IMG/VR virus record: IMGVR_UViG_3300046530_000374
Location: 1-54,471 of that record
Source of the DNA: a virus
Length of the DNA: 54,471 bases
Strand: one strand, 5' to 3'
The translations under genes and the position numbers were made by a program. The notes beneath the pieces were generated by a model. The model was not told the DNA's origin. It saw only the letters and a program-made list of their open reading frames with translations, and searched no databases. Each line of letters begins with the position of its first letter. Within the stretch, counting starts at the first letter, position 1. Positions 391 through 54,471 of this stretch are shown one piece after another.

Positions 391-1569
391 TCATGCCTGC
401 CTCCTCTTCAAAATTGTCAGAACCGGCCCACGCGAATCGGTTGCTGATACCATGTTCGCAGCTTCAATCAGATGACCGAGCTCAGCGCCCGAGTAGTGAC
501 TGGTGATGCTGCCGTTCTTGTGCCCGAGCAAAGCCTTGCGGTCTTCCTCTGTGACACCCGCCGCCCGAAGGCGACGGCCGAAGGTGTGCTTCAAATCATG
601 GATCCTGATCGACAGATAGCCAGGGTGTGCGGGGCGAAGGTTTTTCTCCTGCCAGAGTTTCGCCGCGCGTACGCGTGCCTTCTTCCAGGCTGAATCGTTC
701 ATTCGGTGAATCGCGGTATCGTTGTAGGGAAATACCCACTCCTTACTGATGCCGCGCTGCTGGTCGATGATCGACTTTGCCACGGTGTTCAGCACTACCA
801 GCCTGTCGTCACCGTTCTTCACGCCTGAGTTTTCATGACGACCGCCAAAATCAGCGGGTATCAGAAAAACGCTGGTGCTGAGTTCCGGTACCGATATCTC
901 CCAATCCCACCTTAATTTGCAGACCTCCTGCTCTCGACAGCCAGTGTTAACCTTGAACAGGGCCATCGTTTGCAAGTGCGCCGGCAACTCTCCGAACAGA
1001 ATCGACTGCTCATCCCACGACATTGGGTAAGGCTTGCGGCTCGACTTCTTCTCTTCCAGCTTGGTGAGCATCGGCACGCTATCCAGCCATGGCCTCCGCT
1101 CATCGTCTCGCCATTTCCGGGCACATAACGACAATACCCGCACCACCCGCTCAATCGAGATGTTCACCGTCCTGTTGCTGACTCCTTTCTGCACCTTGCC
1201 GTCTGCCAACATCTTGGCCGTCAGCCGATCTTTGATAAAAGGCTCCAGAGCCTGGTCATCAATGTGGGTCAGCGGCATGTCGCCAATAAAAGGATCGAGC
1301 TGCGAAAGGTGATGCGCGGACAGCTTGAACGACGGCTGATCCTTGATCTCCACCAAAAACTTCATCGCAGCATCGCGCCAGGTCTTCACCTGACGCACCC
1401 CGTAGACTTTCTGCTGCCGGAGCTGCTCAAGGCGGTGAATCAAGTACCGTTCTGCTTCTTGTCGGTCAGCTGTGCCAGTAGATTCGTAAAGTCTTTCGCC
1501 GTTGATTTTCTTGTCGATATGCCAGAGCCCGTTCCTTTGGGAGAGCCCTGTAATCGTTTTTCGCGCCAT
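391..1569 (-). CDS. int: Phage tyrosine-recombinase integrase
   Basis: A 392-residue tyrosine recombinase that should catalyse site-specific recombination at tRNA-Pro. The catalytic domain shows Arg212 (NTGCREQEVCKLRW), the HxxR-type box as HDLKHTF (His324, with Lys327 where Arg is usual), His350 in LLGHKNG and nucleophile Tyr359 in SHYS. The ATG at 1569 has an AAGGAG site 7 bases upstream. Its stop is about 70 bp from the att core, and its first 130 bp overlap the excisionase gene in another frame. The Lys for Arg in the second box is the only oddity; the rest looks intact. A degraded relative lies past attR. Confidence 0.97.
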   Translation of the reverse strand: MARKTITGLSQRNGLWHIDKKINGERLYESTGTADRQEAERYLIHRLEQLRQQKVYGVRQVKTWRDAAMKFLVEIKDQPSFKLSAHHLSQLDPFIGDMPLTHIDDQALEPFIKDRLTAKMLADGKVQKGVSNRTVNISIERVVRVLSLCARKWRDDERRPWLDSVPMLTKLEEKKSSRKPYPMSWDEQSILFGELPAHLQTMALFKVNTGCREQEVCKLRWDWEISVPELSTSVFLIPADFGGRHENSGVKNGDDRLVVLNTVAKSIIDQQRGISKEWVFPYNDTAIHRMNDSAWKKARVRAAKLWQEKNLRPAHPGYLSIRIHDLKHTFGRRLRAAGVTEEDRKALLGHKNGSITSHYSGAELGHLIEAANMVSATDSRGPVLTILKRRQA

Positions 1570-3627: not shown

Positions 3628-4058
3628 CAGCATTCGCTCCAGTTCATTTCTTGGATGTACTCACAAGGGATCACCAAGCTGTCATCAGGTACGGTGCTTT
3701 CTGCCCTGGTATCTCCGAAATACGCGATGGCGGCCTTGGCGCGCTCAAGCGATAACTGTGCATGGCGGATTTGCCAGGACTTGCGCTGCTTGTAGGATCG
3801 AAGCGCCAGGGCCTTGTCGGTGTACGCAAACCTCCGGCCGTGCTCGCCGCCATCCTTCAAGACGCGCTTGCGGTACTGCTTCAACAGGGATTCTCGCTGC
3901 GAGCCGCCGAAGAGGTTGTTGTGGAATTCATCGACGATGTACCAGCACTGATCGGTCTCTCCGATCACCACGTACCTTTTGCACTTTACTTCCAGGCCTT
4001 TCGGGTCCAGCTCGTCAACGTAGCGGAAATGGGCCGGGCCGAGTTTTACGTTTTCCAT
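3627..4058 (-). CDS. Hypothetical early protein
   Basis: 143 residues, function not recognised. The first ~60 residues look like a small beta-rich domain (GLEVKCKRYVVIGETDQCWYIVD), followed by two basic helices. The ATG at 4058 is preferred over an in-frame TTG at 4094, although its nearest purine-rich site (GAGGAA) is 12 bases away, so the start is uncertain. Confidence 0.65.
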   Translation of the reverse strand: MENVKLGPAHFRYVDELDPKGLEVKCKRYVVIGETDQCWYIVDEFHNNLFGGSQRESLLKQYRKRVLKDGGEHGRRFAYTDKALALRSYKQRKSWQIRHAQLSLERAKAAIAYFGDTRAESTVPDDSLVIPCEYIQEMNWSEC

Positions 4059-51434: not shown

Positions 51435-51458
51435 GCCCGCCGAGTGCGGGCTTTTTTT
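51435..51458 (+). terminator. Intrinsic terminator before the endolysin gene
   Basis: Stem GCCCGC / GCGGGC, loop CGAGT, seven Ts. The TCTGGAGAAAGTG following it is nearly the same as that after the J-leading terminator. Confidence 0.88.
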
Positions 51459-51473
51459 CGTCTGGAGAAAGTG

Positions 51474-51899
51474 ATGGACGTGACTGAAAAAGATCGTGAT
51501 GTGCTCGCGCGGACCCTGTGGGGCGAAGCCCGCGGGGAGGGGCTGGCGGGGATGATTGCCGTAGCTTGGTCGATCCGCAACCGTGTCGACGACGGCAAGG
51601 ACAAATCATGGTGGGGCGAGGGTTACACCGGTGTCTGCCAGAAGCCGTACCAGTTCAGCTGCTGGAACAAGAACGACCCGAACTATCCGTTCCTGAGTGG
51701 CGCGAAGCCAATCCCAGCGGCGGAGTTCACGATGTGCCGTCTCGCTGCCGAGCAGGTCATTGGTGGGCTTAAGCCTGATCCAACCGGCGGCGCGACTCAC
51801 TATTACGCGACCACCATGCCGAAGCCACCGGCCTGGGCAGCAAAGGCGAAGCAGACGCTGAAACTCGGGCACCACATCTTTTTCAGGGACGTGCCATGA
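51474..51899 (+). CDS. Endolysin, SleB-like cell wall hydrolase
   Basis: 141 residues from ATG 51474. DRDVLARTLWGEARGEGLAGMIAVAWSIRNRV ... GGATHYYATTMPKPPAWA is the Hydrolase_2/SleB pattern; the Glu in WGEARGE should be catalytic. No signal peptide, so it depends on a holin. Overlaps Rz. Confidence 0.92.
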   Translation: MDVTEKDRDVLARTLWGEARGEGLAGMIAVAWSIRNRVDDGKDKSWWGEGYTGVCQKPYQFSCWNKNDPNYPFLSGAKPIPAAEFTMCRLAAEQVIGGLKPDPTGGATHYYATTMPKPPAWAAKAKQTLKLGHHIFFRDVP

Positions 51900-52426
51900 G
51901 CCCAGCCACTGCGCTTTATCTGAAGGTCGGCGGCGCGCTGGCGGTCCTGTTCATCATCGCGACGGCTCTCTACGGCGCTTATCACCACGGCGAATCGGTG
52001 GCCGATGCGCGCTGGCAGCTGAAGTGGGCTGATCAGCAGACGCTACAGGCGAAAGGTCTCGCCGCCGCCACGACCGAAAACCGAACCGAAGAACAGCGCC
52101 GCCAGACGGTGGTCAACCAGGTGGGAAATGATGCGAGACAACAAAAGGCTGTTGCGACTGCTGACGCTGTCAGTGCTGATGCTGCTGGCGACCGGGTGCG
52201 CGACCAGGCAGGAAAACTGGCTGCCAGCGCAAGTTGCACCACCGGCGATCCCGGCGCTTCCCAGCGAAGCGAAACAGCCACCCGCGCCGCAATGGTGCTT
52301 TCCGACCTGTTCCAGCGCGCTGACAAAAGAGCGGGAGAACTGGCAAAAGCTTATGACGCCGCCCGAATAGCGGGATGGGCCTGCGAGCAATCTTACAAGT
52401 CAGTAGCGGGCGATCGTGGCGGGTAA
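51896..52426 (+). CDS. Rz-like inner-membrane spanin
   Basis: 176 residues. One N-terminal membrane segment (VGGALAVLFIIATALYGAYH) and a helical periplasmic domain (DARWQLKWADQQTLQAKGLA ...), typical of DUF2514/Rz. The nested Rz1 in the +1 frame confirms it. Should fuse inner and outer membranes during lysis. Confidence 0.93.
   Translation: MSPATALYLKVGGALAVLFIIATALYGAYHHGESVADARWQLKWADQQTLQAKGLAAATTENRTEEQRRQTVVNQVGNDARQQKAVATADAVSADAAGDRVRDQAGKLAASASCTTGDPGASQRSETATRAAMVLSDLFQRADKRAGELAKAYDAARIAGWACEQSYKSVAGDRGG
52128..52370 (+). CDS. Rz1-like outer-membrane spanin lipoprotein, nested in Rz
   Basis: 80 residues wholly inside Rz in the +1 frame. LLRLLTLSVLMLLATGC is a lipoprotein signal with lipobox LATGC; the mature part is Pro-rich (PAQVAPPAIPALPSEAKQPP), diagnostic for Rz1. 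Confidence 0.93.
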   Translation: MMRDNKRLLRLLTLSVLMLLATGCATRQENWLPAQVAPPAIPALPSEAKQPPAPQWCFPTCSSALTKERENWQKLMTPPE

Positions 52427-53521: not shown

Positions 53522-53872
53522 ATGAGCTTTGCCATGCTTTTCGATCAACAGAAAATCTCTCTCGACCAGCTACTCAACATCCGCGCGCCTGGCACCTACC
53601 TAATAAAGGTGGAAGGCGACAGTATGCAGGGTGCCGGAATCTTTTCCGGTGACATCCTGATCGTGGACAAGGGTATGGAGCCCGCCGCCGGCAGAGTTGT
53701 GATTGCCCTGGTCAACCGCGATCCGCTGGTGAAATACCTGTCCTTTGTGGATGGAATGCCGGTGCTCACGTCGGCAAATTCCAAATACCCGGCGCGCTAC
53801 ATCCTTGAGAACGATGAATTCGAGGTGTGGGGCGTGGTCACCTACAGTATCCGGGACCACGACAAGAACTGA
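53522..53872 (+). CDS. UmuD'-like S24 protein (HumD-like)
   Basis: 116 residues. ISLDQLLNIRAPGTYLIKVEGDSMQGAGIFSGDILIVDKG aligns with UmuD from about residue 38; Ser34 and Lys71 are the serine-lysine dyad. The ~35 N-terminal residues with the Cys-Gly cleavage site of UmuD are missing, and an upstream TAA at 53501 rules out extension, so it starts as a UmuD'-like form, as does HumD of phage P1. It could partner host UmuC or compete with host UmuD/LexA. No umuC follows; attR is 150 bp away. Confidence 0.88.
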   Translation: MSFAMLFDQQKISLDQLLNIRAPGTYLIKVEGDSMQGAGIFSGDILIVDKGMEPAAGRVVIALVNRDPLVKYLSFVDGMPVLTSANSKYPARYILENDEFEVWGVVTYSIRDHDKN

Positions 53873-53911
53873 TTGGGAGAGGGTACAGGTCGGCAGGACG
53901 CCGGGGAGGGT

Positions 53912-53940
53912 GCGTGACTTTTGCGTGACTTCGCGTGACT
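53912..53940. promoter_or_regulatory. Integrase arm-type binding repeats, right end
   Basis: Three copies of GCGTGACT at 53912-53919, 53923-53930 and 53933-53940. The first two, with their spacing, are identical to 362-380 at the left end and in the same orientation. Confidence 0.6.
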
Positions 53941-54021
53941 CTATGATGATCTATAGCTATTCGATTGCAGCGAGCGCCAGAGAAATCAACCATATGCCCT
54001 GTGTTTGCTTAGGTGCCGCGT

Positions 54022-54074
54022 GCATGGGGTGCTAGGGGTCGAGTGTTCGAATCACTCCGTCCCGACCATATAAT
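54022..54074. repeat. attR: attR core (53-bp direct repeat)
   Basis: Identical to 265-317. Upstream sequence lacks the 5' half of the tRNA, so this is the phage-side copy carrying only the tRNA 3' end. Excision would remove 53,757 bp. Confidence 0.95.
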
Positions 54075-54085
54075 CCAATGACTTA

Positions 54086-54112
54086 GCCCAATCTTCTCAG
54101 GTTGGGCTTTTT
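54086..54112 (+). terminator. Terminator after attR
   Basis: Stem GCCCAA / TTGGGC followed by five Ts, in the position of the phage-borne terminator at 329-356 but with a different sequence. It would again end the tRNA transcript after prophage excision. Confidence 0.75.
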
Positions 54113-54137
54113 CATGCTTAGCGACTTTTGCGGGGAA

Positions 54138-54471
54138 TCATCCCGTTTTCCTTTTCAAGATCGTCAGCACCGGGCCTCGCGAGTCGGTTGCCGATACTTT
54201 GTTTGCCTCCTCGATCAACTGCCCAAGCTCTGCGACAGAGTAATGGCTGGTGATGCTGCCGTTCTTGTGCCCGAGCAAAGCCTTGCGGTTTTCCTCTGCG
54301 ACACCCGATGCCGGGGTGCTGAGTTCCGGTACCGGTATCTCTCAGCCCCGCCTCAATTTGCACACCTCCTCCTCGCGACAGCCCGTGCTCACCTTGAACA
54401 AGGCCGTCGTTTGCAAGTGCGCCGGCAACTCGCCGGACATAATCGACCTCTTATCCCGTGACATCGGGTAA
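54138..54471 (-). pseudogene. Decayed second integrase gene (runs off window)
   Basis: The minus-strand reading ...ALLGHKNGSITSHYSVAELG...SATDSRGPVLTILKRKTG is closely similar to residues ~345-392 of the integrase at 391-1569. Upstream, PELST is joined in frame to PASGVAEE, deleting about 105 residues that include the HxxR box. Further upstream, the codon matching Trp223 is TGA (54342-54344). It therefore cannot make active recombinase. It belongs to another element integrated at the same tRNA; its 5' end lies beyond the window. Confidence 0.9.

Follow-up and report, generated by a model that had tools for sequence, protein, structure and literature searches.

In the 54,471-nucleotide stretch analysed here (the window, an IMG/VR virus record that holds a Pseudomonas prophage), the 3′ end of a tRNA-Pro gene was very probably once occupied by an older element, now decayed, and later phages have inserted in front of the integrase (int) stub that it left behind. 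This reading is built on a common att sequence, the lesions of the stub, the occurrence of one and the same scar behind different prophages, decay without constraint and mosaicism of the stub, all of which can be read directly from the sequences.

The tRNA-Pro target and the integrase remnant

The integration target is a tRNA-Pro(GGG) gene at 235-311 on the plus strand (ARAGORN). A 53-bp segment comprising its 3′ end and flank (265-317), which is the tRNA-side att core and flank and serves as attL of the resident prophage, recurs without mismatch at 54022-54074. The resident integrase, a tyrosine recombinase of 392 aa (391-1569, minus strand; PF00589, E 1.5e-12; phrog_1, E 5.6e-39), adjoins the tRNA. 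Tyrosine recombinases usually have HxxR where this protein has HDLKHTF; 151 of the 160 relatives share the latter, and the pattern used had no match in the remaining 9.

A repeat motif, GTGACTTTTGCGTGACT, lies at 364-380 and is a probable integrase arm-type site. A motif search with TGACTTTTGCG gave two occurrences on the plus strand of the window, at 365 and 53915, and these copies are presumably such arm-type sites. The stretch immediately left of the second att (53888-54021, with matching motif repeats at about 53912-53940) has counterparts to the left of att copies at other loci, with 92% identity both in P. rustica (L236) and in P. fluorescens HKI0770 (L217) and lower values, down to 71%, elsewhere (matches with E 1e-12 or better that extend well left of the core). 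Since other prophages have this arm at their right ends and it contains the motif copies, 54022-54074 is taken as attR of the resident prophage; it also looks like the former attL of some other element. Two further features lie near the right end of the prophage, namely a UmuD-like protein (phrog_811, E 4.4e-32) at 53522-53872 and a segment at 51435-52396 that is 92-93% identical to the prophages of contigs G187 and G188, which are more divergent elsewhere, and that is possibly shared cargo.

The original prediction placed outside attR an integrase related to the resident one, and this is borne out by two blastn blocks, the first of which begins with the exact 53-bp repeat: 265-560 against 54022-54307 (242/298, 81%, E 5e-79) and 874-1030 against 54315-54471 (134/157, 85%, E 1e-48), a similarity that is evidently far beyond chance. 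The att-side (3′) piece of the relic occupies 54138-54314 on the minus strand, ends in its natural stop codon at 54138-54140 and matches query residues 335-392 at 83% in tblastn; the middle piece, detected by both blastn and tblastn, occupies 54315-54471 on the same strand. Between them, at a junction between 54314 and 54315, 306 alignment columns are deleted in frame, so that the predicted in-frame loss stands and its size is corrected from about 105 residues to 102 codons. The TGA predicted at 54342 is indeed found, on the minus strand at 54342-54344, and corresponds to resident codon 223. The relic also sits, as had been claimed, in the same place relative to att as the resident gene: its stop codon lies 116 bases from its own att start and that of the resident (391-393) lies 126 bases from its own, because of a 10-column alignment gap. 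An eroded copy of the arm motif, GACTTTTGCG, is present at 54123-54132, 101 bases from the att start, the resident equivalent being at 366. The 5′ end of the gene is missing as well (approximately 166 codons): in contig G001, which continues past the window, int homology stops about 45 bp beyond the window end, near codon 167. The remnant integrase is thus broken by the 306-bp deletion, the 5′ truncation and the TGA. When four copies of the relic in other contigs were compared, the TGA was present in those of G001 and G188 and absent from those of G187 and G189, and it is therefore secondary.

Over 123 codons, the relic (whose G001 copy equals the window here) differs from the resident integrase by 29 synonymous and 23 non-synonymous changes and 1 stop. 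The resulting ratio of non-synonymous to synonymous changes (23/29, 0.79) was reached by none of 111 intact relatives, whose median was 0.17 and maximum 0.33. The best 80 of 149 relatives and the best 80 of 277 had been kept; 45 of the 160 control rows were dropped as gapped or incomplete, and then 4 of the remaining 115 as lying outside 78-90% identity. The relic therefore decays without constraint at the protein level. Non-synonymous and synonymous changes number 10 to 19 on its att side and 13 to 10 on its far side, as if the att side were younger, although this is weak evidence.

A shared scar and its mosaic att-side end

The exact deletion junction and the 5′ truncation are common to the window and five other contigs. 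One of these, G001 (IMGVR_UViG_3300046616_000324), was found by a scan for the deletion junction, three (G187, G188 and G189) by a pattern taken from the small gene that begins past the 73-bp repeat described below, and G425 by the junction itself; every relic-bearing record comes from a metagenome and, since some may stem from a single sampling project, they do not form a random sample. The 306-bp deletion is present in all six records read for the relic. Ahead of it, the G001 prophage is 99.8% identical to the window for 12.2 kb and then diverges, G187 and G188 have mosaic prophages with segments that match the window at 69-93% identity, alignment of the window with the 20 kb read of G189 is confined to att and relic, and G425 has 94 and 315 bp in common with it in the 3.3 kb read ahead of att. 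Identical deletions arising independently are ruled out by the common junction, truncation and right flank. The presence of the same relic behind mostly different prophages supports the view that it is an old chromosomal scar and that different phages have docked in front of it at the same tRNA gene over time, in agreement with the earlier proposal that this repeat served as attL of an older element before the present prophage was inserted. No int of the resident's class, tRNA or att was found in the last 9.7 kb of the far end of G425, so the window is the sole record with both ends of a prophage before the relic.

The stub itself is not uniform. Between the deletion junction and the truncation, the G001, G187, G188 and G189 copies are 91-99% alike (lowest value 90.8%), and their flanks 90-100%. 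Over approximately 170 bp after the core, the same four copies fall into three classes that are 69-82% alike, G187 and G189 being identical there behind different prophages. The att side of G425 belongs to the G001 class (91%); past the junction this copy is 91-95% identical to the others, and over the first 84 flank columns 87-95%.

The clearest case is G188, in which the first 148 bp of the stub, including the core, equal the window's resident int without a mismatch. Sites that separate the resident from G001, when scored in G188, give a 48:4 split in the att-side segment and a 9:15 split in the far one (Fisher p 1e-6, to be read as indicative given that the informative sites are linked). 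A resident-like patch also occurs in G188 past the deletion, so one single crossover is insufficient to explain the whole pattern. This resident-like class is represented by one contig only; the other two classes gave weaker contrasts (p 0.002 to 0.07, with an uninformative contrast left out), and no donor above approximately 84% was found for them among the loci compared. Site-specific recombination was considered as a cause and ruled out by reasoning: crossovers at the att core leave the att side joined to the junction and cannot separate the two, so homologous recombination is needed, at least for G188. The alignments indicate that stub and phage int genes exchanged DNA by homologous recombination. 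No earlier report of such mosaic stubs was found in a limited literature search, conducted largely without full texts.

We propose the following history, in which the order of the deletions and the route to mosaicism are inferred. An older element with a tyrosine integrase of the same class would once have resided in the 3′ end of tRNA-Pro. Deletions would then have taken nearly the whole element, comprising the first approximately 166 int codons with everything beyond them and the 102 internal codons, and att and the int stub would have stayed beside the tRNA. In later phages of the same specificity, attP would recombine with the tRNA-side att, thereby placing each new prophage between the tRNA and the stub. 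The likeliest route to the mosaic end would be RecA-type homologous recombination between the 3′ end of the resident int and the stub, which form direct repeats flanking the prophage; a crossover between them would remove the prophage, and the remaining stub would owe its att side to the phage that was lost.

The most serious alternative concerns this last step, and has a considerable probability, if somewhat less than an even one. Mosaic stubs may have arisen through strain-to-strain exchange of the entire tRNA-att-stub segment, without involvement of a prophage in the same chromosome; such exchange is equally compatible with the mosaic alleles, and G187 and G189 indeed possess one allele behind different prophages. 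Even so, some int gene must first have recombined with a stub, and the direct repeats needed within one chromosome are available, the window containing exact stretches of 43 bp and 53 bp. Recombination within one chromosome, with deletion of the prophage, is thus moderately favoured over exchange between strains. A broader extension is put forward tentatively: the stub might operate like a turnstile. Being homologous to the 3′ end of int in each phage that arrives, it would allow prophages to be deleted by homologous recombination without an excisionase, and its att side would be rewritten each time.

DNA beyond the remnant

The DNA downstream of position 54471, in which further phage genes and a third att repeat had been anticipated, could be examined through G001, which matches the window end at 100% across 3,392 bp and supplies another 771 bp. 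The int stub runs on for the 45 bp mentioned above and is followed by a 75-aa gene, a 73-bp repeat and the start of a small gene. The 73-bp stretch, located approximately 580 bp past the window end (L164, reverse complement 3974-4044), is 85% identical to 54071-54143; it corresponds to the tRNA's downstream flank with the eroded arm motif and does not include the tRNA part. A proper third att was not found past the relic in G001, this partial copy being the sole further repeat. Its two flanking genes adjoin each other in G125, where the repeat is absent, which weakens its interpretation as a plain original attR; it may be a scar of greater age or a doubtful, degraded outer att.

In G187, G188 and G189 the flank reaches a gene whose translation starts MAINPDAPGN, and in G188 it continues into DNA like an acetyltransferase gene (this and the DUF883-like designation are names read from translations alone). 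G108 possesses, downstream of tRNA-Pro and in that order, a homologue of the MAINPDAPGN gene, acetyltransferase-like DNA and a DUF883-like gene, beginning 2.8 kb from the tRNA; G125 has the same gene row, with the 75-aa gene and then the small gene ahead of it. In the contigs G001, G187, G188 and G189 this row starts about 1.2 kb from att. Because such a row lies downstream of tRNA-Pro in a related genome, the DNA after the relic is most likely chromosome, with no second prophage adjoining. The 75-aa gene has no PHROG match and none in phage records; it has matches in 21 of 149 Pseudomonas genomes, and its neighbours include an integrase-like ORF in G108 (L316) and DUF883-like chromosomal genes in G060 and G125. 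The remnant consists of an int stub of approximately 0.5 kb, or would reach approximately 1 kb if the adjoining small gene was part of the element. In terms of the observation named beforehand as decisive against the idea, namely a lack of further element-like DNA or att repeats downstream, an intact neighbour is indeed lacking, and a decayed one is not.

These data also bear on three readings of the right end, each of them very improbable. A true tandem lysogen, with an intact or large second prophage downstream, would have a precedent in G019, which has tandem elements of the same integrase class at tRNA-Pro, but chromosomal flank is reached within the short distance given above in all four contigs. 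Equally improbable is the reading in which the relic is a second, decayed int carried as cargo by the present prophage, whose true right end would lie further out: the IMG/VR record does include the relic and a partial third repeat follows it, yet the identical relic and flank occur behind different prophages, the arm left of 54022 recurs at the right ends of other prophages, and chromosomal genes come next. An assembly artefact joining two att copies, suggested by the fact that att repeats are usual points of mis-joining and that the window stops about 400 bases after one, is just as hard to credit when G001 repeats the 3,392 bp across att at 100% (12.2 kb at 99.8%) and the att-relic join recurs in G187, G188, G189 and G425 behind other prophages.

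Related tRNA-Pro sites and comparison with known systems

The relic junction was detected in none of 398 Pseudomonas isolate genomes with up to 3 mismatches allowed. Empty sites, which the original prediction had advised comparing, were looked at as well: in four isolate genomes (L287, L288, L290 and L291) tRNA-Pro is followed by an int fragment, of 24 residues only in L290, and then by genes read as ordinary chromosomal ones, with no prophage of the resident's class in front of the stub. Such an arrangement is what would be expected of the state before re-infection. Among 30 tRNA-Pro loci, a biased sample made up of the best-scoring ones from 149 matching genomes, 6 had an int fragment or an internally deleted int, and 5 a full-length int, while the 1.5 kb read gave no match at the other 19. 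A broken int followed att in 7 of 50 att-bearing loci, which were chosen and fetched from 38 genomes (the scan drew on 40 of the 80 genome loci, L004-L043, of which all except L038 were covered, and these lie in those 38 genomes). An int of the resident's class precedes the broken one on the same contig in 5 of these 7 (G014, G015, G022, G025 and G038), and the remaining 2 are on separate contigs.

Other arrangements were also observed. On contig C2 of G019 (L248, L181 and L202), tRNA-Pro lies at about 139.8 kb, ints of the resident's class at 186.3 and 226.6 kb, and a further att at 249.8 kb. The tRNA-Pro flanks of L253, L254, L270 and L219, and of L257, L269 and L279, have other short repeats (GCGCAAAAC and ACTCCCAC, respectively) in place of the GTGACTTTTGCG of the present family, which suggests that other integrase families may use the same tRNA.

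For integrative elements with a common att, accretion has been described in PMC5704250 as a three-step model in which an incoming element joins a decayed one (CIME). That model concerns conjugative and mobilizable elements and a remnant that keeps attL and attR, whereas here the element is a phage and the remnant an int stub with a doubtful, degraded outer repeat. A near parallel is the tandem of PRC and an IntC prophage at a tRNA site in Oenococcus oeni, in which, according to PMC8074189, the prophage likewise sits next to a fixed remnant, in its tRNA-side att, which is intact, the outer att being degenerate; PRC is kilobases long and more than 99% conserved, whereas approximately 0.5 kb of integrase is left here, decaying and mosaic at its att-side end. 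In Mycobacterium abscessus, prophiT36-2a/2b (PMC9934374) similarly reflect a second integration into a resident prophage's att at a tRNA gene, but both are whole prophages found as virions and there is no int stub. The PAGI-97A-like islands of P. aeruginosa also target tRNA-Pro, where 49 bp of the tRNA(ggg) 3′ end recur as a direct repeat, and PMC8373256 places their intG at the end opposite the tRNA; the resident int here adjoins the tRNA, so the resident prophage does not have the PAGI-97A-type arrangement. In the defective prophage 04 of P. fluorescens Pf-5 (PMC2647930), int is adjacent to tRNA-Pro, as here. No displaced int stub at tRNA-Pro is described in the accessible sections of PMC8373256 or PMC2647930. 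Accretion at a tRNA site is therefore already known; the present locus is a well-documented further case, and the mosaic stub a modest variation on it.

A practical caution is that a virus record may contain a host-side stub, as does the IMG/VR record of the window. With regard to biology, several related contigs show different phages coming and going at one tRNA site where a small scar persists. If stubs do pass prophages in the turnstile manner, the phages that a lineage has lost could be read from their alleles, and the host would have its own way out of lysogeny. If the mosaic end indeed records lost phages, int fragments beside Pseudomonas tRNA-Pro genes, such as those at 6 of the 30 best-scoring loci, may tell of past infections, and homologous recombination would constitute a testable second exit for prophages.
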